A stretch of DNA of 64,000 nt. Origin: Selaginella tamariscina (taxonomy: Eukaryota; Streptophyta; Lycopodiopsida; Selaginellales; Selaginellaceae). Within the stretch, counting starts at the first letter, position 1. Every line of letters begins with the position of its first letter. Below are positions 2,521 through 57,680 of the stretch, piece by piece. The DNA lies in contig PUQB01000179.1 of assembly GCA_003024785.1 (NCBI GenBank), positions 248,001-312,000 on the forward strand, read 5' to 3'. The notes below the pieces were generated by a model. The model made no database searches. It worked only from the letters and a program-made list of their open reading frames with translations, and had not been told where the DNA came from. The translations under genes were made by a program, and so were the position numbers.

Positions 2521-2640
2521 TGGGGCGTTAACTTAGATCGTCGTCACGTGTCCTTCCGGAGGGATACGTGGAGCCTCTCACTGGCCGCCAATCGGCCAAA
2601 GGTGACACGTCGTCCCACCCGCATTAACGATGGTAGATCT
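2521..2640. promoter_or_regulatory. Probable PARP3 promoter block with ACGT-core (G-box/ABRE-like) sites
   Basis: A GC-richer island in AT-rich spacer, about 170-290 bp upstream of the PARP3 start. It contains a CACGTG G-box at 2545-2550, another ACGTG at 2566-2570 and GACACGT at 2604-2610 in opposite orientation. ACGT-core sites bind bZIP factors in plants and often mean ABA or stress control; here that role is inferred. The rest of the spacer (2640-3074) shows no gene, only AT-rich sequence and a CGTG/TGCG-rich microsatellite near 2965-2992. Confidence 0.4.
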
Positions 2641-3074
2641 TCCCTAAGATTATCTTCGGATTCTACACCCTCGATCTTTTAAATAGTTATTTCTATGTTT
2701 ATTACATGTACATATAACTATTATGTAGCCGTGTATATTACTAAGTGTATACTATCTTTATACGTACACATACTTGTGTACATGTCACATCTACCATACG
2801 TACATACAACTGTATGTACAAACTGATCATGTCTATACAAGTCTACATGTGCGTGTGAGTGTTGTTGTGTTTTGTGTGTGTTGTGTTCTCTATTTTACTA
2901 ATTGATTAATATCCTTTTACTTATTATAGCTTAGATTTTTCTAATTACAAGCTATTAAAACACACTGTGCGCGTGCGCGTGCGTGTGCGGGTGTATTGAA
3001 AAGATCGTATGGATGATTAAAGAGGTAAAAATTACAATAGAAACCACTACCGCATTTATTTAGTATATGTACGT

Positions 3075-6000
3075 TCAAACTTCGATCAAAGTGCTAATAT
3101 TTTGGTTTTCTTGTTGCTTGTGTGCCACCTATAAAACCCACATCAATGTGTGAATGCACACACGGACACACACGCACACGCACACACAACGAGCTAATAC
3201 TCACCTCGACCCGTGATTTTGCTTGAAATAACGTAATTGTGTCGAGATCCCAATCTATATTGCTGAAATATATAAACAATAGTTTAGAACACACACACAC
3301 ACGGGCACCACTTACCTGCGAGAGACAACTAGCTGCCAAATATATGGTAAGAAGAACTCCTCAGGGTGAAGCTCTTCCTCGTATGTAAACCGTAGCTGCG
3401 TGAAAATCTACAAAAACCAGCAGCATTCATAACATATAGAATTTATACACGTATAGCTATACGCGTATGATGTGCGAATATGCTCATGATAATCAGTAAT
3501 GTACCTTCATGCCTTCTCCACGCCAGGACCTTGCATTTGCTATAACAATCTGTAATACTCTCTCCACGGACCATTCTCCATTAAGCTGTTGATCGTCCAT
3601 TCTTACATTAAAGAAGTCCAAAACCTTCGTAAAGAACTCTGTCAGCGTGTGCGTGTGCGCGTTCATGTTGTACATATGCATGGTACGTGTATGATAAATA
3701 TACATATGTGCGTTGTGCGAGATAATTACCGTATATATATTTTCAAGAAGCTCACAAAACCGAGGATGATCTTTGAATGGTTGAAATAGCTCTTGCCTAT
3801 GAAGAAGTGCATAGACAACCTGCATGTCATGTACTACATCAGAACATTCATGGTTATACTAAAATTAGCACTAGAGGAACTATATGTTATACATTGTACA
3901 ATGTTTATACGTACTTCTGGATTGCGTGGTAGGGCGTACGTGAGGATCGCATTTATGATCTCCAAAACAATACGTAGAAAATCTGTGTATATATGTAGCT
4001 CTGTCGGCTGCAAGAAAACTTGCATTACTGTAATACAAAAGCTTATTACGCATAAACTTAAATAAATGAAAATATAGACAAGTATAAATACATATAAAAG
4101 TTTAAATGCCTCCAAATAAACACGGATGCAAAACTTGCATAAACTGGTTTAATCTATGAAGTCTAAATTTACCATATCATCTGTTGATTCAAAGCCTTCA
4201 ACTTGAATAATTTTCGTTGCAGCAATCTTAGCATTGTTATTCACATCGCAAACCTTCTTGTACCTAGTAGCAAGACATCAATACTATATATATAAAATAA
4301 ATAAAGATAAGCGTTCATAGTTTACAACAAAGTAAGGTGATGTGTGTTTTGTGCCTTTGTGTGTGTGTTTCCTAAAATGTCTACATACCATTAAGACAAG
4401 GATCAATTATTAACCAAACAGCGAGATTATTTATTTTTAATTTATATTGGTAATATATATAGTATGTATATCATTTACAGAACTCACTTGCGTGCGAGCA
4501 TGTCAAAGAGACTCACAAGCCTTTGTGAAGCATATGCATTGAGTTGGTGCATATGTGGTGCCATGTTTGCCAAAATAGCTAGGCAGTTCGTGTGTAGAAA
4601 CAAATCCTGTTCAAATAGATATGTTATCTACTATACATACTTTATATGAACACACATATCCAATGTCTAACACACACATCACACCACACACGCACACACA
4701 TACTTTGAGCTTTGAAAGATTAAATTTCACGGTTCTAATGAGAACGACGACCATTAGAGATCCTAAGGATATTCCTGGAAGAAGACGCTCTTTAACCAAG
4801 GAACAGCTGGTAAAATCTGCGAAAAGAAATTGTAAATACATTTAATATTCATCATAAAGTAAAATATATCTGTGCGTATTATACGTAAGTTATACGCTTT
4901 GTGCTCGACATTTATATTATAAATGCTCTCCCTCTACATAAATACATACGTGTATATAGGATATATATGTGCGTGACTCACAAATATAAACTATGACGCA
5001 ATAGAAGCACTATACCAGCTTGTGTATGCTTGCATTGAACGTGGAGTCTTGACTGAGGATGAGACATATAACCAGCAGCATATATATCTGATTAGGAGTA
5101 AGCTTTTGTACATCATACAGCAATTCCAATATCGGCATTATCTGTAAAGAAGGCACGTGAGCATTAGGTTATTAAGTGGTTTAGTATAATCACTCATTAT
5201 ATATATTATATGAACAACTGTGTATGTTCCTTGAATTATACCAGAGTGTCTAGATCGGTTCGGACCAAAACGTACTCCAAAAATGCAGGATTTCCATGAA
5301 TCAGCGAGTATAAAAGCAGAATAGATGCATCCTCCGTTAAGCACCTAAAGAAAAAAAAATGTGTGTGTGTGTGTGCGCGTGCGCGTGCGCGCGTGTTTAT
5401 GTCTGGATGGATGGATGCGAGCACTTATTTGTGCGATATGCATACACACACATTATTAAAACATGTGCATGCGTGTGTGTGAAGCATATACTTACTGTCC
5501 AAGTCTGTCGTAGAGAGCTGCAAATGGAATTCTGACGCCTAGACCACTGTTTTCGATGTCGGCCAGATCAACTGCACACAGACATGAATACGGGCGCAAG
5601 AAGAAGAAGGTTTATGCATGCGTGTTTGTGTGCGTGTGTGCGTGTATATGAGCAGAACAGAGAGAAATTCACATACAAACACAAAAAGACACACTTACAG
5701 TCTGTGTCCCTTGCAAATTCTACAGCTCGACGAAAGGGATTGTGAGGTTGTTGTTCCTCTGTTAAACTGCTCCTTTTTTCATAGTGTACAAGTACCAAAA
5801 GCAGAAAAAGACTATTATCTGCTAATGGGAACTTAGAATAACGATCCCCCCCAGAGCTCAGTAGATACGTGTAAGTATAATATGGTAGCATGAACACCGT
5901 AGCTGCAAAAGAGAAAAAATGTTTATAAAACAATAACATTGATGAGTAACGTGAATAACATTGATACTTCCCAGACAGTATAAACATGTCGGTATGTATA

Positions 6001-7506: not shown

Positions 7507-10287
7507 ATGGAACATGGAGTCTCTCAATATGTTCCTTTTGGAGGGCGATCTACAAACAGAAGTGTCCGGGTGAGATACGGACTGGTTGGTGAACTCAAAC
7601 AATGCGGCGACAGAAAGGACTTGAAAGGAGGGAAACTCTTACATTCTCATATAGGAGAAACTGGCCGTCACAAGAACAGAGACGTTGCCATTGCTTTGAT
7701 GAAAATGTACAGCAAGTGCGGCAGCATGCAGGATGCCCAAGATGTTTTCGAGAGCATGATCCAGCGTGATGTGGTTTTCTGGACTGCGTTAATCCTTGGA
7801 TACGTGGAGAATGGGGAGAGTTTGGCTGCTTTGGAGGTGTTCAACACCATGGACTGTGCACCAGACAGTTTCACGTTTGTTGCTGCACTCAAAGCGTGTG
7901 CGGCTTTGGCTAAGCTGGACAAGAAGAGTTGTCGATACAAGTGCATGGCCATCCATAGACAAGCCAAGGAACACGGCTTCGAGAAAAATGTATTTGTCGC
8001 GAGTACCTTGGTAGGCATGTATAGCAAGCTCGGAGACATGCTAAAGGCAAGAGATGTTTTCGATGGAATGATGCATCGGAGTGTTGTATCCTGGGCTGCT
8101 TTAATCCGTGGATATGTGGAGAATGGAGAGAGTTCTGTCGCTCTGGATGTGTTTAACACCATGGACTGTGCACCAAATGGTGTTACTTTTGTTGCTGCGC
8201 TCAAGGCATGTATAGGTATGGCAGTAAACAAGTTTGATAAGAAGATTTGTCTACGGCATGGAGTCAAGATTCATGCACAAGCCAGAGACCGTGGCTTTGA
8301 CAAGGACTCGTTTGTGGCAAGCACCTTAGTGGAGATGTATACCAAATGCGGGGACATGGCACGAGCAAGAGATGTCTTTAATGGAATGACTCACCGGAGT
8401 GTTGTTTCCTGGACTGCTTTACTGCTTGGATACGTGGAGAATGGGGAGAGTTCAGTGGCCTTGGAGTTGTTCGACAGCATGGACTGTGTACCAAACCCAC
8501 ATACTTTCGTCGTTGCACTTAAGGCATGTGCAGGTTTGGCAGCGGACAATCTGTTAGACAGGGGGACTTGCCTGCAGAGGGGTTTGGCAATACACAAGCA
8601 AGCCAGAGAGCGTGGCTTCGACAAGAATGTGTTCGTGGCAAGCACCTTGGTCGACATGTATAGTAAATGCAAAGAGATGTTATGTGCAAGAGATGTCTTC
8701 AACAAGATGACGGACCGGAGTGTTGTATCCTGGAACGTTTTGATCCTTGGATACGTGGAGAACGGAGAGAGTCTGAGGGCTTTGGATGTGTTTAGCCGCA
8801 TGAGTTATCTACCGGACAGTGTCAGTTATGTTGCTGCACTCAAGGCATGTTCTACTTTAGCTGGAGAAGAACAATCGGACAAACAGAGCTGTATAGAAAG
8901 GGGAGCTGCCATTCATAGACAAGCCAGACAACGGGGCTTTGACAGACATCTGTTTGTGGGAAACACTTTGATAGACATGTATAGCAAATGCGGGGACATG
9001 GTACAGGCAAGACAAGTTTTCGACGGAATGAAGCAGCGGGACGTTGTATCCTGGAACGCTTTACTTCATGGATACGTGGAGAATGGGAAGAGCCTGGATG
9101 CTTTGGACGTGTTCAACACCATGTACTGTGCACCAAACCGTGGTACATTTGTAGCTGCACTTAAGGCATGTGCAGGCTTGGCATGTTTACAGAAGGGGTT
9201 AACCATTCATGGACAAGCAAGAGATTCTGGAGTTGACAAAGACGTATATGTGGCAAGCACCTTGGTGGACATGTATAGCAAGTGCGGGGACATGCTACAT
9301 GCTCGTGAAGTTTTTGAAGGAATGGTTCGCCGAGACGTTGTATCTTGGAACGCTTTAATCCTTGGATACGTGGAGAATAGGGAGAGTTTGATTGCCTTAG
9401 AGGTATTCAATACCATGGACTGCCCACCGGATAGTGTTACACTTGTTGCTGCATCCAAGGCATGTTCAAGCTTAGCAATTGACAATAAGGAGGACAGTTT
9501 AGAGAAGGGAGTTGCGATTCATAGACAAGCCAGAGAGTATGGCTTTGACGAAGATGTAATTGTGGCGAACAGCTTGGTGGACATGTATAGCAAGTGCGGG
9601 GACATGCTACAGGCACGAGGGGTTTTCGAGAAAATGAAGCGCAAGACTGTTGTATCCTGGACTGCTTTAATACTTGGATACGTGGAGATGGGGAAGAGCT
9701 CTGTGGCTCTGGACTTGTTCAACAATATGGATTGCGTACCGGACGCTATAACGTTTGTTGCTGCGCTCAAGGCCTGTGCTGTTCTAGGAGCCATAGAAAC
9801 CGGACAGAGGATCCATGATCGGGTATGCGAGCTCGGGATGGAAGAGCAGGAAATGGTAGCGAGCTCTCTGGTGGACTTTTACGGGAAATGTGGCAACATG
9901 GCTGCGGCCGAGGAGGTGTTCAACCGGATGCCTTCTCGGGATATTGTGTCTTGGACTGCTTTGATAGGAGGATACAGCCTGCTCGGTGACACATGTCAAG
10001 TGTTCAGTGTGGTAAGGAGGATGGAGGAAGCGAACATGCAAATGAACAGTGTGACAGTGAGGTTAGTGCTGACTGCGTGTAACCACGCAGGGATGGTGGA
10101 GGAGGGCTACCAGTGTTTCGAGTGTATTTCGAAGTACGGGTTTAACCCGAGTGTGGAACACTATACATGTATGGTTGACATGTTGGGCAGGGCCAACAGG
10201 TTGCAGGAGGCTTTGTCGCTTGTTATGAACATGCCATTTGAAGCCAGTAGTGCAGCGTGGATGAGCCTGTTAGGGGCGTGTGTGTGA
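7507..10287 (+). CDS. PLS-class pentatricopeptide repeat (PPR) protein, intronless
   Basis: A 926-residue uninterrupted reading frame made almost entirely of PPR motifs. About eight near-copies of a roughly 100-115-residue block recur, each holding MYSKCGDM.QAR.VF, then VVSW.ALILGYVENGES, then TFVAALKACA and IH.QA. PPR proteins bind organellar RNA one base per repeat; P-L-S arrays usually serve C-to-U editing in mitochondria or plastids. No DYW deaminase is seen. An E-like segment (EHYTCMVDMLGRANR...AAWMSLLGACV) begins just before the stop. The expected continuation (NLEIGKVAFSALL...YVLM) is present at about 10287-10406 but two bases out of frame, at a TGTGTGTG run (10278-10285). The start at 7507 is the first in-frame ATG; no clear targeting peptide was recognised. 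Repeat style is like Selaginella PPRs. Confidence 0.92.
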   Translation: MEHGVSQYVPFGGRSTNRSVRVRYGLVGELKQCGDRKDLKGGKLLHSHIGETGRHKNRDVAIALMKMYSKCGSMQDAQDVFESMIQRDVVFWTALILGYVENGESLAALEVFNTMDCAPDSFTFVAALKACAALAKLDKKSCRYKCMAIHRQAKEHGFEKNVFVASTLVGMYSKLGDMLKARDVFDGMMHRSVVSWAALIRGYVENGESSVALDVFNTMDCAPNGVTFVAALKACIGMAVNKFDKKICLRHGVKIHAQARDRGFDKDSFVASTLVEMYTKCGDMARARDVFNGMTHRSVVSWTALLLGYVENGESSVALELFDSMDCVPNPHTFVVALKACAGLAADNLLDRGTCLQRGLAIHKQARERGFDKNVFVASTLVDMYSKCKEMLCARDVFNKMTDRSVVSWNVLILGYVENGESLRALDVFSRMSYLPDSVSYVAALKACSTLAGEEQSDKQSCIERGAAIHRQARQRGFDRHLFVGNTLIDMYSKCGDMVQARQVFDGMKQRDVVSWNALLHGYVENGKSLDALDVFNTMYCAPNRGTFVAALKACAGLACLQKGLTIHGQARDSGVDKDVYVASTLVDMYSKCGDMLHAREVFEGMVRRDVVSWNALILGYVENRESLIALEVFNTMDCPPDSVTLVAASKACSSLAIDNKEDSLEKGVAIHRQAREYGFDEDVIVANSLVDMYSKCGDMLQARGVFEKMKRKTVVSWTALILGYVEMGKSSVALDLFNNMDCVPDAITFVAALKACAVLGAIETGQRIHDRVCELGMEEQEMVASSLVDFYGKCGNMAAAEEVFNRMPSRDIVSWTALIGGYSLLGDTCQVFSVVRRMEEANMQMNSVTVRLVLTACNHAGMVEEGYQCFECISKYGFNPSVEHYTCMVDMLGRANRLQEALSLVMNMPFEASSAAWMSLLGACV

Positions 10288-25729: not shown

Positions 25730-25734
25730 GCTTG

Positions 25735-27565
25735 TGTCATAGTTTTTACTATGACTCGACCCTTTACTTTGGACATTGATTGTTGTTACCTACTGTACTA
25801 TGTTGATGGACCCTAGATGTAGTAGGAAACAGGCCCGCTTAGTGCACTTGGGTATCTGGTGATGGTCCGGCCGGGTGTCATTAGGTATTTGCAGGAAACT
25901 CTAAGCGAAGCTAGAACTTACCTTCTAGAAACCCACCCCCAATTTTGACGTCCCAATAGGCTGATTGGTCTTTGCAGATGAGTTTGGCATGTTAAGTAGG
26001 GTTAGGAACACCCCTAGGGTTGACCTAACCCTAGGGTTGCCCTAACCCACGCCCTAAAACCCCCACCCCCTTGGGTAGGGTTTAGGGGTAGGAGTAAGGG
26101 TGAGTTATAGGCTCATATTGCTAATTTATCTAAGGGGCTAGAATTCAGTGCCAGCCCACTAACACAAAGGAAAAGAGGGGGGGGGGGCTCCGTCACATAA
26201 ATAAGGTAGAGTATGTAGGAGAGCTCCTGGGTTCATGAATGAGTTCGTTGCTCTTCTGCCGGTGCAAGCTTCAGCTTGTGTCGTTAAGGTACAACCCTTT
26301 GTTGTGCCGCCCTAACTTCCAGATGCCAGGGGTACGTCCCACCTTCGGGGTAGCTTACCCTTAACGTTGGCGAATCCATGCCTGGGAGGTCTTGTCGGAT
26401 GCACGTTCCAAGAGGCAGAGGTTGAGGCTTGTCTCCAGCCTCCTCCTCCACGTCAAGCTAGGTGTAGCACTCACGGCCAAGCAAGGCACATCCGTGTCCT
26501 TGTCCAACTGTGGGCGTGGGATCTTGTTTGACAGGTTCACGTTACCTGGTTCCTGAGGGTTCATTGAGGGGTTCTAGAGTTGGCATTTAGGAACCACGTT
26601 TGTGGTACTTGGTGCAACTCTTGAATCTAAGGGCTATGGCATGATAGCCCACATCTTGGAAGGCAGTGTCACATGGGATGTGACACTGGGCTAAACGTCA
26701 CATGGTACAACGCCCGAGGCACGCCCTTTGGGGTTATGTCATGGGCTTGTCGCTAAGGGGTTGGATACTCTAGCAAACAGGCATGCTTGTGCTTGCACTA
26801 GGGTGCTAAGCCTTGGGCATCCGCTCGAGGGAGGTTAGGTCTCGTAACTAGGTGTGCTTTGGCACACTTGGCTAGGGGAGTGTTCTCCTTGGAATCCAGG
26901 GGTTGAACAACCTAAGCTCATTAGCAGAAGCCCTTTCGTAAGGCACTCGCAAGGTCATGTGCTTAGGGTTATCCCAAACCTAGCCTTAGGGAGTTTGCTT
27001 AGCAGAACACTCGTGTCCGCCTACGGCGCACACTCGTGTCCTCACTAAGTACTAGCCCTAGGTCTAGGGTATAACTTGGCCACTCAAACCCTTAGGGGTT
27101 AGTCGTGGTTCAGGGTACCCCTTGTCGCCCTAAAGGGGTTGTACTCCCGGATGAGGGTGATTCCTCAAGGGGTAAGTGACATGCCTTAGCTCTGTCAGGG
27201 GTATGTGTGGAACACACGTCTCCTTGATGGGGGTTAGGGCATGAGCCTGTCTAGGTCTTCTAGGGCAAGACCCTAAGTCAACTAGGGTTATCCCTCAAGG
27301 GTTTTGGGGTAGACACTCTAGGGAGACTTAGGCTAAACCCTAAGTCAACTAGGGTTATCCCTCAAGGGTTCTGGGGGCAGACATTCTAGGGAGACTTAGG
27401 CTAAACCCTAAGTCTCCTGTCCACTTGGGCATTAGAGTCTAACCCTAGGGGTCGTTGGGGTTGTTCTGGGAAACTTAGCGTTGCTCACACAGGGTGATGA
27501 CGCCGAATGGCCACCTGGCAGCCACGTGTTGCCACGTGTTGGCCCTTTGGGTTAAAACTCTGACA
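25735..27565 (+). repeat. 5' LTR of the LARD-like element (1,831 bp)
   Basis: Starts with a perfect 8-bp hairpin (GTCATAGT at 25736-25743, TTTT loop, ACTATGAC at 25748-25755). Contains a G10 run (about 26177-26186) followed by ACATAAATAAGG, a plausible TATA-type promoter. A 9-bp hairpin lies at 26664-26688. A unit of about 67 bp is tandemly duplicated at about 27271-27406 (each copy holds AAGTCAACTAGGGTTATCCC). Short open frames inside are identical in both LTRs simply because the LTRs are. Confidence 0.93.
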
Positions 27566-27567
27566 AT

Positions 27568-27580
27568 TGGTATCGGAGCC
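27568..27580 (+). other. Primer-binding site (initiator-Met tRNA type)
   Basis: TGGTATCGGAGCC two bases inside the 5' LTR. The usual plant initiator-Met primer site is TGGTATCAGAGCC, so there is one mismatch. Confidence 0.85.
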
Positions 27581-30500
27581 TATTCTCTACGGTCAGTAGG
27601 ACTACCTAAAGTGTAGTGTATTTTAGGGTTTAGTTAGTTCTAAATTCTTGAAGTACTCTATCACTTTCGGCTAATGTCTGAATTCTGCGTGGAGAGTTGG
27701 TCCTGAGATCTATAACTCTTCAGAGTACACCTACTTCATAAGTGGGTGTGGGTTATGGACTTAGAAGGTAGCACTTGGAAGTCAGCTTCCAAGTTGTATG
27801 CCAGGTTATTTTACCTTATGGTTGTCCAGGTTACTTTACCATTTACTTCCACAAGACGGCGTGTTAGTTTGTTGGCTTACAAACTAAGTCTTGTGAAGTG
27901 GCATGTGATATCCTATTCTACACATTATTGAAAATTTTTCTTTTTCTTTAAGGTGTTTGAATTTGGGATAACACATGATTTGGAAACAGATATGTCCTTG
28001 AGTTTTGGCTTAGTCAAGATTCAATATCGTCCAACAATAGTGTTCAAACGGGGAAAGACTTATGTTCAGAAGTGCATCTTTGACTTCGGGAGAAGGGGCA
28101 TATTCAAACATAAGAATGAACACTACATTTTGACATAAAGTGTAAAATAAGCTCTCATTATAGTGCATGTTTCCAGAGTGTAACTCTAGAAGCAGACTAT
28201 GGTGATGAACTTATAACAATGGAATGTCGAATATTAACATATGATAATATGTTAAGCAATTGGTTCGAAGATCCAATGTAATCAAAGTATTGTCTGATGG
28301 CAATATTTTGATGATGCTAGCTGCAAGTAACATTAGGTGGAATAGTTTACTAAGTTCAAGTCACCTAATTTGAACAAGTATAACTTGAAACCTTAGTTAG
28401 TTGTAAGCGCGCACTCTGTATTCAAGTTAGCTAGCTCGACTAACTTGATTATGAAGTTCTCATATGGGATCATGGAGAGACTTCGGATAATAGCTTGAGG
28501 ATTTCGGTTTCTTATCGATATAGTTTTGGGATAGATGGCATGATCTATCAGAAAGAGTAATGTTGGAAACATACGTTTACATTTTCAGTTTACTGAGTAA
28601 TGAAGGACTTGCATAGTGAAGGCGTTCGGCGCACACTTGTGCATTTTCATTGTTAACTCTTTAATCTTGAAACTGTAACGTTGTTTGCAATGTGGGATAA
28701 GCTCTTGAACAAGGGTGATTCCTTGGTTAAGAAGAGCATGATTTGGGATTCTTCACTTTGTTTATCGACTAAGTAAGGAAACTTGCTAAGTTTGATAACT
28801 TATGTTGAGAATTACCAATGAGCTAGTAATAGTCGGATTTCCATTGGAGGTTTAAGTGCATGTACCTCCTCAAGAGTCGGTGTTCGATGAGAATTGAAAG
28901 TTGATATTGATTTTCAATATCAATTTTATTTTAGAGTCGAATACGATTATTCAAAAGACGGTTTCTTGACTCTGCATCATGGTCGAAATGTGGGCACTTA
29001 AAGAACAAATAAAGTAGTATCTTCAGTTCTTTAGAATATTGAAAAATAGAACTATTCTTGACTCAAGGTTTGATTGTATTCCTTGGGTTAGTTGTTAGTT
29101 CTATCTCAAGGTTTGATGGTGTTCCTTGAGTTGGTTCAATAGTAAGTAATATTGTGTAGCGGGATTAGCTCAAGAAGATGGTGTCCCTTCTTGATGATTG
29201 TAGTTCAAGGTTCGTCCAATATCCGGTTCGAGAATATGAGGTTTCCTATCACCTCATCTGTGAGATATTTATATTCTAAACTTTGATAGAATTTGTGACA
29301 ATCTTTTCAAGATTGGTTATAAATGACTTGTCAAAGTATAGTATGATATCTCTTCAATATTGAGTTTGGAGCGCTCAATATCAAACTTGGTTATGATCAC
29401 ATGAGGTGGCCGTAATCATATAATATAAAGACTCAAGTGGATTTGAGTCTGACACTTTGGTAAGGCACTACCTTAGTGTTATAACTTGAAAGTGTTTTCA
29501 AGTTAGTTGAGAAATGAGACATTTCTCAATACATTGCTTGAGGGGCAATGTATACTTTCTGGATTGCTAGGTGTCTAGAGTGAATAATGTATCTTAGTTC
29601 AATACTGAACTAGATATTTTATTCATGTTTGGGGAGATCTATTGAATTATAAGGTATAATAAAACATGAAGTTGATATAACACTTCAGTGTTATGATAAC
29701 ATTTATGTGGAGGTTGATATCTTACTAAATCAATTAGATGAACCAGACACTAGTTCATGATTCCTCTTAGTCTCTGAACAAAGTTCCTCGAATATATGTC
29801 ATAACATTATATTTCCGTCTCAAAATTGAAGTTCGGTTCATGTAAACTAAGACCATATCTATAAGTAGTTGTAGCATTTTGATAAATTGATATGATTGTA
29901 AGTTTATATCCACTAGTATAACAACTAGTTGATAAGCTTAGGATTTGAACGTTAAAACGATCATTATCCATTCGAAGTATCAATATCGAAATTGCGACTA
30001 TTTATGAATAAGGATTAGTTTTAAAAGATGTTTATCAAAAACACTAGTTGCTTCAATTAGTGAAAATGCTATACTTCGGTATAGTGTTGAGAAACATTTA
30101 CGAAATCAGTTTAAGAGTTGGAAATAAATATAATGTTATGGAGGCGTGCAGTATTCGAATTCAGAGACTCTTATCGTGGAAACTAAGTCTTAAAATTTGG
30201 TATTTTGAACTTAGTGAGATAAGAGTTAGGAAGTATTGAACGGCATCTAGTATGATGTGCTCTTTGGGGAATGAGTACAATGAGGACTAATTAAGACAAA
30301 GATTGTTGATTGAGGCATAGAGATGGGTTGAATTTCCTGGTTTCCACATTGGTTTAAAGAAAGGTATGTTAGCTTATCTGGTCCCTGAACTGGTCGGTGT
30401 TATGAAAGAGTACAAAGTTGGTTGTGAAAGATGAATGGTATGCTATCACACTTGGTTGCAATTTGACTGAATTTGATTCCTATCGGGAATAAATTTATGT

Positions 30501-31256
30501 TAATAACACACCAAGTGGATGGCAGGTTGGCAAGACCTTGTTGTATACATGTGTACAGCCATGCGCCTCTGTGATCGCCTCTGGCCAGATTGACATGTTT
30601 ACAAAGAACAGGGTTTTACGAATTGTACTCTTGTATCGGAAAAGAGCTTGATTCCGATAAAAGTCTCATACTTAGTCTGGCGTAACTATATACTAACGAG
30701 AGATAGGTATAGTAGCAGACCCTTATGAAAAGGGGTAATGAGAAACACCGAGGGATGCAGAGATGTAAGCTATAATATCGTAACATGTGGGACCATTGGA
30801 AAATCAAAGAAATGCGAAGGTGTTTGGTCAAGCATTTGAGAAGTGCTTGTTGTGCGCTAGATGACAGAGGTCGTCAACAGCGTTTAATATTAAGGAATAA
30901 AGCAAGTCTTTATTTCTTTAACCAAGGGGCCGGCAACAACACTAACTAGAGGCCTCCAATATAAATTCTAGTTAAGTAAAGAAATTAACCAGTGTTGTGT
31001 GCGTCGGGTGACAGACTTTGCAGACGTGCAAAAGGTCTCCAAGTGACTTCATGTCGCAGGTGGTGCCTCCGGCAGCTGGGTTTACGACTCAGTGAACGAC
31101 GGTTCTGAAGTACTTGGTTTCGCGTAATGCAAGGGGGGTAATAAATTATGTGAACTTTTGGCTGACTCCGCATAGAGTGATATGTTAGTTTTGGTTAGTT
31201 TTCTCTAACATTATCTAGTCTTGGAGTTGGACGTCAACGAGGACGTTGACATTTTC
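27581..31256 (+). other. Non-coding interior made of serial short hairpins
   Basis: Perfect inverted repeats follow one another, many nested. Examples (left arm/right arm): 27773-27781/27786-27794 (9 bp); 27851-27857/27888-27894 enclosing 27865-27872/27879-27886; 28236-28242/28247-28253; 28422-28430/28440-28448 (9 bp); 28901-28909/28915-28923 (9 bp); 29000-29006/29026-29032; 29105-29111/29124-29130; 29170-29177/29187-29194; 29236-29242/29251-29257; 29299-29305/29309-29315 inside 29281-29286/29331-29336; 29357-29364/29374-29381; 29430-29436/29443-29449; 29483-29490/29497-29504; 29509-29516/29520-29527; 29531-29537/29545-29551; 29595-29601/29606-29612; 30069-30074/30079-30084 with a TTCG loop; 30168-30175/30218-30225 enclosing 30182-30188/30209-30215. 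No protein-coding signal. A folded genomic RNA is the natural reading; LARD interiors in cereals are reported to have conserved RNA structure. Confidence 0.75.
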
Positions 31257-31270
31257 AAAGGCGGGGAGTG

Positions 31271-33061
31271 TGTCATAGTTTTTACTATGACTCGACCCTT
31301 TACTTTGGACGTTGACTGTTGTTACCTACTGTACTATGTTGATGACCCTAGATGTAGAGAAACAGGCCCGCTTAGTGCACTTGGGTATCTGTGATGGTCC
31401 GGCCGGGTGTCATTAGGTATTTGCAGAAACTCTAAGCGAAGCTAGACTTACCTTTAGAAACCCACCCCTTTTGACGTCCAATAGGTGATTGGTTTTGCAA
31501 TGAGTTTGGCTTTAAGTAGGGTTAGGAACACCCCTAGGGTTGACCTAACCCTAGCCCTAAAAACCCCCCCCTTGGGTAGGTTTAGGGTAGGAGTAAGGGT
31601 GAGTTATAGGCTCATATTGCTAATTTATCTAAGGGCTAGAATTCAGTGCCAGCCCACTACACAAAGGAAAAGAGGGGGGGGGGGCTCCGTCACATAAATA
31701 AGGTAGAGTATACGTAGGAGAGCTCCTGGGTTCATGAATGAGTTCGTTGCTCTTCTGCCGGTGCAAGCTTCAGCTTGTGTCGTTAAGGTACAACCCTCTG
31801 TTGTGCCGCCCTAACTTCCAGATGCCAGGGGTACGTCCCACCTTCGGGGTAGCTTACCCTTAACGTTGGCGAATCCATGCCTGGGAGGTCTTGTCGGATG
31901 CACGTTCCAAGAGGCAGAGGTTGAGGCTTGTCTCCAGCCTCCTCCTCACGTCAAGCTAGGTGTAGCACTCACGGCCAAGCAAGGCACATCCGTGTCCTTG
32001 TCCAACTGTGGGCGTGGGATCTTGTTTGACAGGTTCACGTTACCTGGTTCCTGAGGGTTCATTGAGGGGTTCTAGAGTTGGCATTTAGGAACCACGTTTG
32101 TGGTACTTGGTGCAACTCTTGAATCTAAGGGCTATGGCATGATAGCCCACATCTTGGAAGGCAGTGTCACATGGGATGTGACACTGGGCTAAACGTCACA
32201 TGGTACAACGCCTGAGGCACGCCCTTTGGGGTTATGTCATGGGCTTGTCGCTAAGGGGTTGGATACTCTAGCAAACAGGCATGCTTGTGCTTGCACTAGG
32301 GTGCTAAGCCTTGGGCATCCGCTCAGGGAGGTTAGGTCTCGTAACTAGGTGTGCTTTGGCACACTTGGCTAGGGGAGTGTTCTCCTTGGAATCCAGGGGT
32401 TGAACAACCTAAGCTCATTAGCAGAAGCCCTTTCGTAAGGCACTCGCAAGGTCATGTGCTTAGGGTTATCCCAAACCTAGCCTTAGGGAGTTTGCTTAGC
32501 AGAACACTCGTGTCCGCCTACGGCGCACACTCGTGTCCTCACTAAGTACTAGCCCTAGGTCTAGGGTATAACTTGGCCACTCAAACCCTTAGGGGTTAGT
32601 CGTGGTTCAGGGTACCCCTTGTCGCCCTAAAGGGGTTGTACTCCCGGATGAGGGTGATTCCTCAAGGGGTAAGTGACATGCCTTAGCTCTGTCAGGGGTA
32701 TGTGTGGAACACACGTCTCCTTGATGGGGGTTAGGGCATGAGCCTGTCTAGGTCTTCTAGGGCAAGACCCTAAGTCAACTAGGGTTATCCCTCAAGGGTT
32801 TTGGGGGTAGACACTCTAGGGAGACTTAGGCTAAACCCTAAGTCAACTAGGGTTATCCCTCAAGGGTTCTGGGGGCAGACATTCTAGGGAGACTTAGGCT
32901 AAACCCTAAGTCTCCTGTCCACTTGGGCATTAGAGTCTAACCCTAGGGGTCGTTGGGGTTGTTCTGGGAAACTTAGCGTTGCTCACACAGGGTGATGACG
33001 CCGAATGGCCACCTGGCAGCCACGTGTTGCCACGTGTTGGCCCTTTGGGAAAACTCTGACA
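31271..33061 (+). repeat. 3' LTR of the LARD-like element (1,791 bp)
   Basis: Near-identical to the 5' LTR. Most differences are small deletions clustered in the first 400 or so bases; substitutions are few. It has the same terminal hairpin at the start and the same 67-bp tandem duplication (about 32767-32903). It is followed by the GCTTG target duplication. Confidence 0.93.
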
Positions 33062-33289
33062 GCTTGTCATGTACAGGTGTTTAAAATAACAATGATTGAT
33101 TTCTCTTTGATGAGTCTATGGTGCAATACATTATACATAGATTCGCAATATTATATATATATAAATATTTGAAAATTATAAAGGAAAAAAAATTGTTTGA
33201 GACAATTGTATTTCAAGAAGGAAAACATAACCCTAAGACTAAGTCCCTAAGATTGTCTCTAATATAATAAGAAAATCAATAACCTTTTG

Positions 33290-47039: not shown

Positions 47040-48403
47040 GTACACTGTTTGTTTTTCAATAATAATTTGTGAGTATGTATTGAAGTTTATATAACACCAT
47101 CAACTATAATATTAGTTTGCACTGGATACCTCTCTTCCTATAAGCATTGTGTTACGATTTTTAAAACGTAACACACTTCGTACATTGAACAGCAATATAA
47201 CGATCACCTAGTAATCTTGCTGTCATCCCTTTTAAGTTGTCACTTAGCATACAAACAATCTTGTTAATATGCATATGTGTGTATACATGTATTTGTATGT
47301 GTGTGGGATGACTTACTATGGCATGTTGATGGGCATTAAGATCTGCATTGCCTGCCCCTTTCCAAACGGATTTCTTCCCTCTCCGATGCTGTTCTTAAGA
47401 TCATCAATTCTTTGTTATCGAACCTATATGCATTCGTATATTCTATGCTAACTCAATATTTCGAGCTTTCATATATGATGCTATCCGTATTATGAGTTGT
47501 ACATATGTCACAATATAGAGATGTACACACACACATATATGGTTTACGACATATGTTTTACCTAGTCATTTGGTGCAATGCTCTCGTATTCGTCCGAACC
47601 ATAGGAAATGCACTTCGAACAAAGCAATCAATAGAGAAATGTGAGTGAAAGGTTTCAACGTTAATTAAATGGTTAAGCCTGGCTAAGTTGGGGTTCATGT
47701 ATTTTAATTCTGGACTGATTCATTAATCAGTCCTGCATGACATAAAGGATAAAAATATAGAGGTGTTATTTCATATAGAAAAATTATTAAAAAATTTAAA
47801 AGTATTATATATATTATATTGAATATATTTAGATGGAGACTTTTTGAACGAGATACAAATCAAAATAATCAGTTATTTGAAATATCATTTGCAAAAAACA
47901 CATGATTGTAATATCATGCACTTGTTTTTATAGGTAAGACTCTTATAACACTTGTTATAATATTTATATATTCATTGCACTTATGGAATAATAATAAAAA
48001 AATTAGTGAAGTTTTATTTATACTATAAATAAAATTACTCATCAAATTTTTATAATAAGAAATGAGTTTATATTTTATAATAAATGAAACTTTTTATTAA
48101 AAGTTTCTTAAAAGAAATTCTTATTCTTGTTTAATTTAAAAAAAAAAAATCAAACATAAGAATTGATTGAATACTTACTTATTTTCTTACATCTTAAATA
48201 AATTAATTAAATACAAGTACTTTCGCTTAATTAATTATAACTGATCATGTAATGATACTTAATCTCAACTTCATATTCATGCATACATGACTTAATTGAT
48301 TTTTTGGAATCACCAAGTTAAGAAATATGTAAAATATGTCCGTAATCTTCTCAAAATCTATTCTAATATTATAAATATGCTATAATTAAACAAAAGTAAA
48401 CTT
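47040..48403. other. Gene-free spacer
   Basis: AT-rich sequence between the PLAC8 gene and the gypsy insertion; no coding or RNA feature seen. From about 47431 it is duplicated at 56577-57575. Confidence 0.6.
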
Positions 48404-48566
48404 TGTGAGAGCTCGGAATATAGAAATGTGTATATCCCATTAGTTCAGAAAACTCTAACTTATATACAAGAGCGAGTGGTCCAGATTGAATCCAATCTAA
48501 TGGTTATCAAAATCCACTACGCTAATAATAGTATGTGCACATGCAGCAGTACACGTGGATCTTACA
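48404..48566 (-). repeat. 3' LTR of the gypsy element (163 bp)
   Basis: Left copy of the terminal repeat. With the element read on the minus strand it is the 3' LTR, preceded in that direction by the purine tract. Confidence 0.88.
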
Positions 48567-48988
48567 TCATCCCCTCCTCTCGGAAGGGTGTAAGTTGGTT
48601 AGGGTTCTCTTGTAGATGGGCCCGGATCTGGAGGAACATTAGGAGGAGGCATTGGGTGATCTGTAGGTGGCACAACTTGTTCCCGCGTTGCAGCAAATGC
48701 TTTCAACCGTTGTACATGTACAATCTCCGGAGGATCGGGTTGAATGTCGTGCCGAACCTCATAAACTTGTGGCCCTACTTACCGGTAGCACTCGATACGG
48801 TCCTTTCACTGAGGAAGGAGACTCTTACTAAACCACGTACCGTAAGCTTGGGAAAACGAACCAACACCAGTTCATCAACCTTGTACTCCGCAGGAGACGA
48901 TGATGCGAGTTGTAGCGTTGTTGTTGTCCTACTTGTACGCGGCCCAAGTGTTCTGCTGACTCCGCACGAACCAATGGAAGAATGCTCG

Positions 48989-50113
48989 TCAGATACCGAT
49001 CCCATAACCTAGCATCAGCAGCTCGTGGTAACCGAGAAGGCAAACCCAACTCCGTTGGCAACACCGGGTCATGACCATACAAAAGCTTATATGGGAAGTA
49101 CCAATGGAACTTTGAACTCCAGTGACATAAGCATATCGGAGAGACGGCAGATAACCATCCCAATCTGAATGTTGAAAGTTCACATACTTCGCGATGAAGG
49201 TTCTGACGAGCCGTTCCACTAAACCATCTGTCTGAGGATGATAAGCACTTGTGAAAGTGTGGCGTATCCCTAATCGAGATGTCAAAACATGAAATGCCTC
49301 AGCCATAAATGCGGGACCATTATCCGAGAGAATTCGCTCCGGACAAGAATGCTGAAACACGACCCGATTCAGGAGAAACTGACCAACAGCAGAAGCAGTC
49401 GCACTAGCAAGAGCACCAACTTCTACCCAACGAGTTAGGTAATCAGAAGCAATAATAACGTACTCGTTACCAGCAGTTGACCGCGGAAAAGGTCCCATCA
49501 AATCAAATGCCACCAATTCAAACGGACGAGAAACTGCAATTGACTCCAACCGTCCTTCCGAAGCACATGGGGGAGTATTGCGAGCTTGGCACCACACACA
49601 GCTACGCACATACCGAATCACATCTCCTCGCAACTCCGGCCAATAGAAAGATCTGCGCAGCTTCTCCATCACCCGACGATGTCCCATGTGCCCGCCAAGA
49701 ATAGGAGAGTCATGGTAAGCATGGAGGAAGCGTGGAATGAAGATTGAAGGCACCACCAACCGCAAAGGATCATCTGGATCAGTCCCCACAAAATAAAGAA
49801 GGTCATCCTGAAGGCGATACTGTGAATGTAAATGCCTGAAAGGCAAGTCATCAGCAAGTGATGCAGGATTCTCAAACCCATCACGAAGCCTTCGAATCCA
49901 CGGCTCAACCTTTTGAGCTTCCCGAACCTCATCCAAAGACGGCAAATCTAACTCTGCATTCTGCGGACACTGAATGTCAAGCACAGCAACTGCTGATGGT
50001 ACGGAATCTTCATCCAAAAAGTCCACTGAAGCTGGAACAACTGGTTCCTCTGGGGCAACAGAAGAGAGAGAAGGTGGAAGAGGAGCCCGAGAAAGAGCAT
50101 CAGCATCAGCCAT
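48989..50113 (-). CDS. Gypsy integrase (with end of RNase H linker)
   Basis: Begins in ADADALSRAP, the usual RNase H-integrase linker. A zinc-binding head GGHMGHRRVMEKLRRSFYWP with CVWCQARN follows. The catalytic core has D in VAFDLMGPFP, D in LSDNGPAF and E in LVERLVRTF, so the DDE triad is present. The C-terminal tail (to about 48600) is out of frame and shows no chromodomain. It inserts element DNA into the host genome. Confidence 0.88.
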   Translation of the reverse strand: MADADALSRAPLPPSLSSVAPEEPVVPASVDFLDEDSVPSAVAVLDIQCPQNAELDLPSLDEVREAQKVEPWIRRLRDGFENPASLADDLPFRHLHSQYRLQDDLLYFVGTDPDDPLRLVVPSIFIPRFLHAYHDSPILGGHMGHRRVMEKLRRSFYWPELRGDVIRYVRSCVWCQARNTPPCASEGRLESIAVSRPFELVAFDLMGPFPRSTAGNEYVIIASDYLTRWVEVGALASATASAVGQFLLNRVVFQHSCPERILSDNGPAFMAEAFHVLTSRLGIRHTFTSAYHPQTDGLVERLVRTFIAKYVNFQHSDWDGYLPSLRYAYVTGVQSSIGTSHISFCMVMTRCCQRSWVCLLGYHELLMLGYGIGI

Positions 50114-51526
50114 GGAACTTCCTGGCGATGAACAACTTCAAAGTCGTAAATTTGAAGTTTCAAGGCCCACCGAGCAGTACGCCCAATCAAATTCTTCCGC
50201 TTCAACAACGAAGTGACTGCTGCATGATCGCCTTCCAACAACGTCCGCGAACCATGCAAGTAGGCATGGAGCTTCTCAAAACCCCAAACTGCTGCTAGAC
50301 ACTCCTTTTCAGTCGTGGAGTAATTCACCTCTGCTGGCTGCAATGTACGGCTGATGTACGCAATGGGATGTCGTTGGCCAGGAACACTCGTACTCTCCTG
50401 CATCAATACACCCCCGAGGCCGATGTCAGAAGCATCTACACGCAAGATGAAAGGACGGGTGTAATCCGGGTACGCCAAAACTGGAGGAGTCGTCAACAAC
50501 TCTTTGAGATCTGCAAATGCCTGCTTGCAATCCTTAGACCAAACAAAAGAAGTCATTGACGATTTCAACAACGCGCCAACGGTGCAGTACGATCTGAAAG
50601 ATGATCCACAAAACGACCCAGATATTGTACCTTGCCAAGAAAGCGTTGCACATCATTCACACACTTTGGCGTAGGGAACTTCAAAACTGCAACTAGTTTG
50701 TCAGGATCGACTTGCAAACCTTCACGTGAAATGCGATAACCCAGATAAGTGGTGTCCTTTGATCCAAAACACACACTTAGATGGCTTCAACTTCAAACCA
50801 ACTTCCCGCATCGATCCAAAACCTTACGTACATCACCGACATGCTCCTCCACGTTCCATCCGAATGGATCAAAACATCATCGATGAAATCGGCAGTCACC
50901 TCCGGCATGTCGCAAAGAACCTCGTCCATCATACGCTGGAAAGTTGCTGGAGCATTGCTCAAACCGAAAGGCATCACCAGGAACTCGTACAGGCCAAATG
51001 GTGTCCGAAAAGCAGTCTTGGGAATGTCCATGTCAGCCATCGGAACTTGCCAATATCCAGATGCGAGATCTAACTTGGTGAACCAACGGCTCCGCCCCAG
51101 TCGATCCAAAAGGTCTGCAGTATGAGGAAGTGGGTACACATCTGAGACGGTTACCTCATTTAACGGGCGATAGTCAATGCAGAATCGAACGCTCCCATCA
51201 GGCTTCGTCACAAGGTGAGGTTCGCACGCCCAAGGACTTCGAGACTTCCGGATAACACCCTTCTCCAACATCTCTTTGACATTCGCTCGTAAGATCTTGA
51301 GCTCCTTTGGTGACCGACGCCGAACAGGTACCTTGATTGGCCTAGCTTCTCCAGTTGGAATAGGGTGGCGTGTCGCAATCTTGGCCCCAGATGACAAGTC
51401 GAAGTTGAAAAGATCAGCATACTCCTTCTTGAGTTGATCAACAACTACAGCACGACGATCATCTGATGGATCCAAAGAAGAAAGGAAGAGCATGAAGGGA
51501 AAATGGTTGGAAATAGGGTGAGACAA
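49948..51526 (-). CDS. Gypsy reverse transcriptase and RNase H (frame-slipped)
   Basis: RT: HPIPTGEARPIKVPVRR, then PHLVTKPDGSVRFCIDYRPL, then WFTKLDLASGYWQV, then FRTPFGLYEFLVMPFGLSN. The catalytic FIDDVLIHS is at about 50890-50870, an allowed variant of YxDD. After that the frame slips; the thumb resumes in TTYLGYRISREGLQVDP (about 50750) and RFLGKVQYLGRF. RNase H follows: FILRVDASDIGLGGVLMQ, YSTTEKECLAAVWG, LLEGDHAAV, with catalytic Asp and Glu. At least two slips separate the blocks. Confidence 0.87.
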
Positions 51527-52011
51527 AAGTGATGGAAGCAGAGGTGGAAGCAGATGGACGAAGTGGAATAGAAGTAAGAGGAATGGAAGAAAGACGAGGG
51601 AGAGTCAAACAAGGGGGAGACTTTTCAAAGTCACACTTGGCATGATTGCGAGTTAACCAATCCATACCAAGAATAAGGTGAAAAGCTTGACTCGGCACCA
51701 CCCGCAAAGATTGAAGCTCGAGCTCACAATCATCCACACGAACAACAATGTCCACTTCATCGCGAACAAGCATGAGTATGTCCGTTGCCGTACAGAATGA
51801 AGACTGGTTCTACCGCACGACGCAAATGAAGGCTGCAACGTGTAGCAACAGATTGAGAAACAGAGGACAAACTCGAACCTGTATCCACCAACACTGAAAG
51901 GAAAACGGGACGAGGCGTGCGATTAAAACGAGCTTGAAAAGTGAAAACCGGATGATTTGGTGCCGAGTGAACCCCTTGATGATACTCCCGAAAGAAAGAT
52001 GGAGGGGTCAC
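51459..52011 (-). CDS. Gypsy aspartic protease region
   Basis: SVLVDTGSSLSSVS holds the DTG catalytic motif (about 51890-51871). HLILGMDWLTRNHAKCDF is the typical second half (ILGMDWL). The two halves lie in different frames around 51760. Confidence 0.82.
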
Positions 52012-52078
52012 TAATTTATTCGCACGAGGACCCTCCTTCTACTCGTGCGATTCGTCGTTTTCCCGGAGATCCACCGCA

Positions 52079-53063
52079 TCACAACCTTCCATTGCAGCAG
52101 CACCAACCGGACGTTGTTGACCATGGCCTCCATCCTGGAAATGGGGGACGCCAATCGGGAAACCGTTGACAGCGCCGATACGTGTGTCCAACCTCATCAC
52201 ATGCCCAACAACGAACTGCACGTCCACGTCCTCGTCCACGGGCCCCACCTTGTGCTGGTACACGAGCGGCAACAGCCTCAACCTCCATCGGAGCAGGTCC
52301 ATCCCCAACATGGAGTGGAACAAGAGCACGTGAAGGCGCAAGTGGGAGAGGTGACGACTCATATCGTTGTGCCAGCCTCAAAGCATCGTCAAGAGTCACT
52401 GGAGCTAGTGCATGCACAAGCCCCACAAGGTCTTGACGAAGTGCTGGCCACAACATACCTAACTTGATGCGTTCCGACATGTTAGGTTCTGCACGCAGCA
52501 AAAGGCTTCGAAAGCGAACACCAAACTGCATCACCGACTCAGATGGCTCCTGACGAATACGATGCAACTGCTGAAAAGCATCATCACAGTCGTCCGCATG
52601 CCCAAATGCACGTTTGAAGATCTCTGGAAGAATATTCCAATTCACGAGTTGCAACGTCCAGACCATTGTACCACTGCAACGCCGTCCCTTGAAGACAAGT
52701 AGGAAATCGCGCAAACACTGAGCACCGTCCCACGAATGATATGTGGCAACCACATGAAGTGGTCAAACCAATGGTACACATCATCTCCAATTCCGCGAAA
52801 GAAATCCGGCCGGACACGGGGTTTGCAACATGAGTAGGAGGAGTACCCTGGACTGTGAATGCTGCCATCAACTGAGAATGATTGTTCAGTTGCACACGCA
52901 TGGCATCCAACAACTGCATGAGTAACTGCTCACAGACAAGGGATTTGCCTGTTGTGGATTCATGGACGAAGAAGAGACAAAATCCACAAAAAAAAGGAGA
53001 TCTAGACAATGGAAAAGCTAGACCTAAGAAGACAGAGAAAATTAATAAAAAACATAAATCCAA
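52079..53063 (-). CDS. Gypsy gag polyprotein (frame-slipped)
   Basis: Start region about 53063-52900; capsid-like text LQWYNGLD and FGVRFRSLLLRAEPNMSE and LVHALAPVTLDDALRLAQRY. A single zinc knuckle CWACDEVGHTYRRC (CX2CX4HX4C, about 52205-52160) follows an Arg/Gly-rich stretch. One or more slips split it near 52620. Confidence 0.8.
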
Positions 53064-53106
53064 GCACTCCGTAGGGACAATTAGAGGTGCCCCTCACCTC
53101 CACCAA

Positions 53107-53271
53107 TGTGAGAGCTCGGAATATAGAAATGTGTATATCCCATTAGTTCAGAAACCCTAACTTATATACAAGAGCGAGTGGTTCAGATTGAATCTAATCC
53201 GACGACGGCTATCAAAATCCACTACGCTAATAATAATATGTGCACATGCAGCCGTACACGTGGATCTTACA
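53107..53271 (-). repeat. 5' LTR of the gypsy element (165 bp)
   Basis: Right copy of the terminal repeat. It differs from the left copy by several substitutions and small indels over about 164 bases. Confidence 0.88.
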
Positions 53272-56060: not shown

Positions 56061-57680
56061 CAAAATAGACGACCGTTATCGATTCAAACTTAAAACTCGT
56101 GATAACCTAATTACTGATAGCTAAATATAGTATATATATCAATGTTCACACTGATCGATTTTGTTTTCTAATAACAAGTTCTTAGCCAGATAGTGAGCTA
56201 TAGTACAATTAATAAGCTAAACCATGTATACATCAATGCCCCATCATATGATACACACAGACATGCATATATATTTTATTACAACATATAATATTATAAT
56301 AATTAATTGAATATGTTTTTCCGTAAACTCCAGCTGGTTTGACATTATTTGTAATACTCCAGTAAAAGATATACACAACCAGCTTCTACTGTATTTAAAT
56401 AAAACAAGACTTTAACATTCAGTATTTTTAAGTAGTAAATATTCACGTATTGGAATCATACTTTTATGTACAAGTACAATATTTATAGCATATTCTTAGT
56501 AAATTAATATATGTAACGAGAACAATTTAAAAAAATGCCGTATCTATACCACATCATATGTAAACACACATACATGCATCGTATATTCTATGCTAACTCA
56601 ATATTTCGAGCTTTCATATATGATATACCGTATTATGAGTTATACATGTATGTCACAATATAGAGATGTACACACACACATATATGGTTTACGACATATG
56701 TTTTACCTAGTCATTTGGTGCAATGAGCTCTTATTCGTCCACACAGATGAACCATAGGAAATGCTCGAACAAAGCAATCAATAGAGACATGTGAGTGAAA
56801 GGTATCAACGTTAATTAAATGGTTAAGCTTAGCTAAGTTGGGGTTCATGTATTTTACTTCTGGACTGATTCATTAATCAGCATAAAAGATAAAATATAGA
56901 GGTGTTATTTCATATAGAAAAATTATTAATAAATTTTAAAAGTATTATATATATTTAATATAATTAAATATATTTTAGATGGATTTGTTCCCTTTTGATG
57001 AAGACTTTTTAAACGAGATACAAATCACATAATCAGGCTCACCAGTTATTTGAAATATCACTCACATGTTTACAAGATTGTAATATCATGCACTTGTTTT
57101 TATAGGTAAAACTCTTATAAAACACTTGTTATAATATTATATTATTCATTGCACTTATGGAATAATAATAAAAAATAATAGCGATGTTTTTATTTATACT
57201 ATAAATAAATTACTCATCAAATTTATTATCATAAGAAATGAGTTTATATTTTATGATAAAATGAAACTTTTTATTAAAAGTTTTTTAAAAAAATTCTTTA
57301 ATTTTTTTTTTTTAAAAATTAAACAGAAGAATTGATTGAATACTTACTTATTTTCTTAAGCATCTTAAATAAAATTAATTAAATACAAGTTTACTTTTGC
57401 TTAATTATAACTGATCATTAATCTCAACCTTCACATTCATGCATACATGACTTAATTGATTTTTTGGAATTCACCAAGTTACGAAATATGTAAATATGTC
57501 CGTAATCTCTCAAAATCTATTCTAAATATTATAAATATGCAAATATTACAGTTATAATTAAACAAAAGTAAACTTGTATTAATCAGGATTATGTTTATAA
57601 ATATTAATTAATATCTTTTTATTTGAGATGTTTAAAAATAAAAAAATAAATTTAAAAGAGGCTTTGTAACCATCACACCT

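Follow-up and report, generated by a model that had tools for sequence, protein, structure and literature searches.

Long terminal repeat (LTR) retrotransposons without coding capacity are known in many plants, and the persistence of their interiors calls for an explanation. The closest described systems are the large retrotransposon derivatives (LARDs), such as Sukkula of grasses, which combine LTRs, a primer-binding site, a polypurine tract, a long, conserved interior free of protein genes and many copies with a claimed RNA structure; one account states that their RNA secondary structure is conserved and that they are assumed to depend on the proteins of a partner (PMC7215508). Here we describe an element of this kind from a 64,000-nucleotide stretch of the lycophyte Selaginella tamariscina (hereafter the window; positions 248,001 to 312,000 of contig PUQB01000179.1, assembly GCA_003024785.1). 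The element, at 25735-33061, is a young LARD-type LTR retrotransposon, non-autonomous and active in the recent past. It has the LTRs, primer-binding site, polypurine tract, protein-less interior and many copies of the class and is a well-documented case of a kind whose existence and conserved RNA structure had already been claimed; it differs in belonging to another plant lineage, and here the strength of the fold was measured and copies from one genome served to examine whether the sense strand is under selection. The predicted fold of its interior is far stronger than chance, and the copies point to a folded sense RNA. Judging from sequence comparison, we put the probability that selection on the sense-strand RNA structure of the interior is real at about 0.85, and not higher because the LTR control described below has limited power.

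Two other systems invite comparison. RNA viruses with genome-scale ordered RNA structure (GORS) are alike in a stability above shuffles that runs along a kilobase-scale genomic RNA. Those are coding, positive-strand genomes, whereas the element is a non-coding LTR retrotransposon with a minimum folding energy difference (MFED) of about 30% and with most stems kept among young copies; it resembles GORS viruses and is not a member of that group. A comparable measure puts the MFED of hepatitis C virus at 6.0-10.9% (PMC7566573). Cassandra and the terminal-repeat retrotransposons in miniature (TRIMs) are alike as non-autonomous LTR elements with predicted folds, and a tandem array of LTRs and interiors occurs here too; arrays, and a 5S-like sequence in the LTRs, are reported for Cassandra in the account cited above (PMC7215508). 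TRIMs, however, have almost no interior, whereas the present element is 7.3 kb long and has no match in Rfam at gathering thresholds. Among the publications found by our literature search, none, judged by title, dealt with a retrotransposon with genome-scale ordered RNA structure, and the search did not meet evidence from one genome for sense-RNA selection in such an element, or a measure of its fold strength.

Folding of the interior

The element consists of the following parts.

25730..25734, no strand: 5' target-site duplication GCTTG, from the sequence; matches 33062-33066
25735..27565, + strand: 5' LTR of 1831 bp, TGTCATAG...CTGACA, from comparison with the 3' LTR
27568..27579, + strand: primer-binding-site-like TGGTATCGGAGC, two bases past the 5' LTR
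27566..31270, + strand: non-coding interior with a chain of hairpins, from stems, folding, frames and sense-strand bias; the structured RNA, with + as the sense strand
31257..31270, + strand: polypurine-tract-like AAAGGCGGGGAGTG, from the sequence; directly 5' of the 3' LTR
31271..33061, + strand: 3' LTR of 1791 bp, from comparison with the 5' LTR
33062..33066, no strand: 3' target-site duplication GCTTG, from the sequence

An earlier note on this DNA had proposed that the interior is a chain of perfect short hairpins, and folding against shuffled sequence had been set beforehand as the test. The interior (27566-31270) folds to -1207.4 kcal/mol, against -938.5 +/- 15.5 kcal/mol for 40 shuffles (z -17.4), far beyond the shuffled range. 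In 200-nucleotide tiles of the + strand, each of the 18 interior tiles exceeded its shuffles in stability (mean z -2.98, with 11 tiles below -2), and the mean z of five comparison stretches of the window lay between -0.8 and 0.02. With 240-nucleotide tiles, the MFED of the interior was 30.0%, 13 of 15 tiles having a z below -2; the tile at 29486 reached z -9.1 and that at 30206-30445 was unstructured (z +1.7). Two other genomic copies, L033 and L035, gave MFED values of 27.9% and 25.9%, and five control stretches of the window -0.0 to 6.5%. A coding gypsy-type element at 48989-53063, in which Pfam recognises reverse transcriptase, RNase H, integrase and gag, gave 0.9% (z -0.03; 0 of 16 tiles below z -2), this coding control being one element only, within the window. 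The LTR, too, exceeds its shuffles in stability, with an MFED of 20.0% (240-nucleotide tiles) and, over 25733-27565, a mean z of -2.83 (200-nucleotide tiles).

Perfect stems with loops of 3-30 bases were counted in 27770-30990 and in 100 dinucleotide-preserving shuffles. The counts were far above those of the shuffles and confirm the hairpin chain: 56 stems of at least 6 bp (24.9 expected), 27 of at least 7 bp (6.8 +/- 2.8 expected; largest shuffle 16), 16 of at least 8 bp (1.9 expected; largest shuffle 7), 8 of at least 9 bp (0.6 expected; largest shuffle 3) and 3 of at least 10 bp (0.1 expected). The excess claimed earlier is therefore real, and the figures given for it, over a dozen stems of 7 bp or more and three of 9 bp, were too low (27 and 8); the chance estimate of 2-4 stems of 7 bp, made for shorter loops, was also somewhat low, the shuffles giving 6.8. 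Inspection of the sequence shows the C(TTCG)G hairpin at 30069-30084 as well as the nested stems listed in the earlier note. A high number of perfect stems was not accepted as a criterion by itself because dinucleotide runs raise it too: positions 1-3700 also hold 12 stems of at least 8 bp, six of them within one CA/TG tract at 1720-1750, yet folding over 1-4000 averages a z of just -0.8.

Strand bias of substitutions among genomic copies

The genome assembly searched comprises 1391 contigs and 300.7 Mb. With the leading 1235 bases of the interior as query, at least 39 other copies, 92-97% identical, were found among the best 40 of 2200 first-look candidates, which were scored; 37 other copies were compared over the interior, three of them only in part. 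On a sense RNA, C>T opposite G and A>G opposite T keep the pair as G-U, whereas G>A and T>C break it by leaving an A-C mismatch. The roles of the two change types are reversed on the antisense strand, and no difference is expected for DNA. Folding of each copy was restricted to Watson-Crick pairs, which favours neither strand, and stems were fixed from the other copies while changes were counted per copy. By our reasoning, mutation context cannot explain a bias in this test because both change types have identical neighbours within a perfect stem, which puts the neutral ratio near one.

Across 38 rows (the window and 37 copies), interior stems carried 117 pair-keeping and 67 pair-breaking transition sites (p 0.0003). 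Split by the number of copies that carry the change, the ratio rose from 63:47 for one carrier to 28:14 for two to five and 26:6 for six or more. Breaking changes were rarer in stems than in unpaired positions (G>A, 82/10338 against 283/10572; T>C, 59/18318 against 127/15567), and keeping changes hardly differed (C>T, 180/10524 against 45/2941; A>G, 198/18124 against 140/12170). The stem-to-unpaired ratio of breaking changes was below that of keeping changes in 38 of 38 rows, and 36 of 38 rows had more keeping than breaking changes. LTRs given identical treatment in 22 rows yielded 44:42 sites, with 11 of the 22 rows (by ratio) and 15 of the 22 (by count) leaning to keeping.

In L033, the most diverged full-length copy, breaking changes number 5/748 in stems and 31/701 in unpaired positions (p 4e-6), and keeping changes 22/759 and 15/407. 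Among seven copies run singly, the odds ratio of breaking changes was 0.15-0.37 in six (p at most 0.019), and the seventh, L041, had no significant depletion (odds ratio 0.72, p 0.53). The bias survives without L033, L035, L027 and L012 (p below 0.001). An earlier form of the analysis, which compared shared with private changes on folds that allowed G-U pairs, leaned the right way (all changes, p 0.0006-0.054; transitions, p 0.014-0.72); it was replaced by the Watson-Crick-only folds because its counts depend on the reference allele.

Compensatory changes in diverged copies

L065, a diverged relative found adjoining another copy, is 66-74% identical to the window element in three segments. Over 480 window pairs it has 32 double changes that still pair, against 20.9 +/- 3.5 in shuffles (5 of 5000 reach 32), and 16 that lose the pair, against 14.7; once simple C-G to T-A double changes are removed, 15 remain, against 6.6 +/- 2.4. 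Its single transitions divide into 64 that keep and 30 that break a pair. Used as a query, L065 gave 1580 first-look candidates and found at least 38 more diverged places, 20 of which were fetched; 17 rows, the window and L065 included, were left after removal of near-duplicates. In the window and its 16 diverged copies (72-87% identical) there are 41 double-changed pairs, against 29.6 +/- 3.2 in shuffles (0 of 500) and 13-22 with slid partners. Keeping and breaking cells stand at 351:188, 15 of 16 rows favouring keeping, and the RNAalifold consensus for this set is -30.7, against -1.1 +/- 1.4 for shuffled columns. Double changes are scarce in the young copies; in L033, six preserve the pair and one loses it. 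The compensatory excess of the diverged copies is supporting evidence and alone no proof. Together with the bias towards G-U, it indicates that the arms of the stems are not mutating independently; independent change would have spoken against the earlier proposal.

A count of double changes on window stems, made over 29 copies, gave 51 cells that keep the pair and 25 that break it; it was set aside because many of the changes are C-G to T-A, possibly deamination on both arms. RNAalifold on 22 rows was likewise dropped as evidence: of its 1070 pairs only 4 have changes on both sides, the divergence being too small and the structure chosen to fit.

Stability above shuffles was 40.5% for the window piece, 29.9% for L086 (87% identical), 16.5% for L076 (86%) and 25.2% for L075 (80%); diverged copies averaged 13.5% over 53 tiles, 18 of which lay below z -2. 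The lower stability of most diverged copies is what would be expected if selection acts during replication and ends after insertion. L065 (noted at its positions 4001-4706, contig C1113) has an inverted interior segment, and its LTR is apparently interrupted by a younger copy of the element; the 821 queried bases are identical on contig C1259, possibly a duplicated assembly.

Individual hairpins and domains

The stems can be followed one by one through the copies.

27773..27794, + strand: 9-bp perfect hairpin with a 4-base loop; unchanged in 35 of 37 copies and broken in the other 2
28422..28448, + strand: 9-bp perfect hairpin; identical in 37 of 37 copies
29482-29505, 29507-29529 and 29529-29553, + strand: three perfect hairpins side by side, with stems of 10, 10 and 9 bp, from the stem count
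29642..29733, + strand: nested domain around the hairpin 29677-29694, with compensatory changes in copies L033 and L065
29874..29995, + strand: multibranch domain from predicted folds; outer stem kept in L035
30069..30084, + strand: C(TTCG)G tetraloop hairpin, from the sequence

Stem-by-copy cells without gaps number 951, of which 831 are identical, 33 have become G-U and 87 are broken; 107 more are gapped. The adjacent hairpins differ in their conservation: the first is identical in 34 of 37 copies and gapped in 3, the second identical in 32, G-U in 1 and gapped in 4. The third is unchanged in 13 copies and has become G-U in 6; it is broken in 12 and gapped in 6. The outermost pair of hairpin 28422-28448, identical among those copies, is T-A in the window and A-T in the diverged L065.

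In the nested domain, L033 has TA to CG at 29642/29733 and AT to GC at 29679/29692, the latter found in L065 too. The window's 7-bp stem at 29677-29694 is identical in 22 of 37 copies, G-U in 1, broken in 12 and gapped in 2; in L033 several bases have changed on each arm of this hairpin and the predicted fold is retained. The stretch of L035 that matches 29780-30280 is only 66% alike. There, in a single and predicted case, the outer stem of the multibranch domain is kept, with the pair 29880/29988 changed on both sides, and the inner hairpins are replaced by others. L035 has, at its positions 1940-2450, a different hairpin-bearing sequence in place of a stretch of the hairpin chain.

Element structure, coding capacity and search for a partner

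The 7.3-kb element has a 3.7-kb interior. Its two LTRs, with TG...CA ends and a target-site duplication, agree at 1784 of 1788 aligned letters (gaps excluded; the lengths differ by 40 bases), and the insertion is therefore young. In 17 other copies that could be compared at both ends, some over about 600 letters only, LTR-pair identity is 95.6-99.8%. The primer-binding site and polypurine tract are recognised by position and sequence. TGGTATCGGAGC, a putative primer site of the initiator-Met-tRNA type, is the sole match in the window within 2 mismatches, about 2.3 such matches being expected by chance; the reading as a primer site is made because of its position and not because of the rarity of the match. 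Further LARD features are present too: a kilobase-scale interior without gag or pol (10 of its 17 frames searched in Pfam), conserved among copies and so not random debris, and a conserved predicted RNA structure.

No recognisable protein is encoded by the interior. Its first frame holds 97 stops, the longest stop-to-stop frame is 85 aa, and Pfam, searched with 10 of the 17 frames that reach 50 aa, gave nothing above the cut-off and one sub-threshold match; a search of Rfam gave nothing at gathering thresholds. Many one-base indels separate the copies in 27566-31270, and several are private to the window copy; for example, a base is missing at 28474 relative to 20 of 21 other copies. These are probably long-read assembly errors.

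An LTR search gave 6346 first-look candidates and 40 scored places, 10 of which were examined on both sides. The same interior adjoins 8 of the 10; at the other 2 it lies on neither side. The gypsy-type element of the window is without the primer-binding motif TGGTATCGGAGC within two mismatches and is not an obvious partner because the motif is not common to both. Copies also occur in close succession. On contig C1102 (L010 and L041) the order is a tandem one, LTR-interior-LTR-interior, a second interior beginning in L010 right after the LTR, and contig C334 holds two interiors 5.5 kb apart.

Discussion

Several results weigh against sense-strand selection, or limit how far its figures carry. 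The minus strand of the interior is also above its shuffles in stability (mean z -2.61, 200-nucleotide tiles). The LTR control is smaller than the interior set (86 against 184 transition sites), and 117:67 differs from 44:42 with a chi-square p of about 0.05. Several versions of the strand test were run, and with L010 and L024 as single references it was not significant. When folds were pooled over 30 rows, changes with three or more carriers stood at 70:50 (p 0.08; pairs from any fold), 55:32 (p 0.02) and 38:18 (p 0.01; pairs in eight or more folds), and those with two carriers at 25:32, 18:17 and 14:10. Pooling over 38 rows gave, for six or more carriers, 47:32 (p 0.11) with pairs in any fold and 37:16 (p 0.006) with pairs in four or more, and for three to five carriers 30:35 and 22:20. 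In the 30-row pooled version, one carrier class of the LTRs leans like the interior (33:17, p 0.033) and another the opposite way (2:12). By the rate test, which is weak, stems carry 0.79-0.89 times the total variation of loops (11-21% less), a reduction matched by 4-10% of rotated masks; the LTRs resemble the interior in this. The bias at the unique sites of the diverged set is modest, 101:73 (p 0.04), or 47:27 with three or more carriers (p 0.03), and RNAalifold gave little or no covariation bonus in the 22 young rows and none in the diverged set. The copies are related, so that shuffle counts are optimistic, and the stems were taken from one row. Diverged lineages may never have been as structured as the window copy, the copies being undated. 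Lastly, no autonomous partner was recognised at the 10 LTR-neighbour places, the flanks of the two without the interior not having been searched for genes.

What might the fold do? The LARD-like element with a structured genomic RNA that the earlier note had envisaged holds up in part, as far as folding, strand bias and compensatory excess bear on it. Packaging, dimerisation or priming, the jobs that it had proposed for the RNA, may each apply, and the present results do not tell them apart. We regard as about an even bet the fuller picture of a LARD-type element whose sense RNA folds into hairpins and small multibranch domains and is carried by partner proteins. The RNA would be transcribed from the LTR without being usefully translated, and then captured, compacted and reverse-transcribed by the proteins of an autonomous partner. 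The distributed hairpins may offer many weak packaging or compaction sites rather than one, and so make the RNA a good passenger. That packaging or compaction is the main job of the fold is a tentative suggestion, somewhat short of even odds. Slightly more tentative still is the view that RNA shape is the only selected product across the 3.7 kb, its hairpin modules being exchangeable, with structure and not sequence inherited.

A protective role is almost as likely as packaging or compaction, doubtful as it is when taken alone: the same selected sense structure would serve survival in the plant cell by hiding the RNA from single-strand nucleases, translation and silencing, with packaging incidental. 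Structure extends over most of the interior and is not confined to one site, and hairpins in L035 are swapped for others, as though general structure outweighs particular sites. The role can be likened to that of genome-scale ordered RNA structure, which is thought to aid persistent RNA viruses, and the strength of the fold exceeds the range of 6.0-10.9% stated for hepatitis C virus (PMC7566573). Most stems are kept (831 of 951 ungapped cells identical), however, which is needless for bulk protection, but the copies are young. Long paired RNA can also feed silencing in plants, which counts against a survival role.

The alternative to selection that the earlier note had itself offered, in which snap-back template switching in the course of reverse transcription left the hairpins behind, is improbable. 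Perfect arms side by side, the stretch of other hairpins in L035 and the stability of the minus strand would fit it. Without selection on RNA, however, there should be no preference for G-U over A-C, whereas the two kinds of change stand at 117:67, and at 26:6 for common variants; nor should there be a compensatory excess, whereas 41 double-changed pairs were found against 29.6, and nested and multibranch domains are not simple snap-backs. Neutral snap-back is disfavoured because of the strand asymmetry. Very improbable is a hairpin chain that acts as a source of small RNAs, miRNA-like or double-stranded, serving the element or its host: hairpins do cover most of the interior, but Rfam gave no match at gathering thresholds, and the precursors of plant miRNAs have stems much longer than 7-10 bp. 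Inverted repeats acting as DNA, through cruciforms or as integration or recombination sites, would account for perfect Watson-Crick arms and for the folding of both strands, but such a role is strand-symmetric and the interior is asymmetric, and we give it hardly any weight. A decayed or unrecognised coding region with incidental structure is just as remote: frames could be masked by the numerous one-base indels between copies, which are probably errors of long-read sequencing, but 97 first-frame stops, a longest frame of 85 aa, a single sub-threshold Pfam match among 10 of 17 frames and the unstructured state of the sole coding element tested in the window stand against it.

Selection on a folded sense RNA thus accounts best for the strand asymmetry, and the element lends itself to further use. 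With dozens of alignable copies that differ in divergence, the stems of greatest importance can be identified, and capture by the particles of a partner can be studied on an RNA that is protein-free. Testing for strand asymmetry, with the LTR as internal control, needs no deep alignment and is applicable to any multi-copy element. Should RNA shape prove to be the sole selected product, the element would be a natural minimal system for an RNA that parasitises another element's particles, with an excess stability about three times that of the comparison virus.

Other features of the window

The gypsy-type element used as the coding control is compact and unstructured; it lies on the minus strand at 48404-53271, encodes gag, reverse transcriptase, RNase H and integrase, and has repeats spaced by about 4.7 kb. 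Around it lie further direct repeats (47434-48310 and 56579-57470) at a distance of about 9.15 kb, probably an older element with a nested insertion. Elsewhere in the window, an open frame of 926 aa with internal repeats occupies 7507-10287; it presumably resembles a pentatricopeptide-repeat protein.

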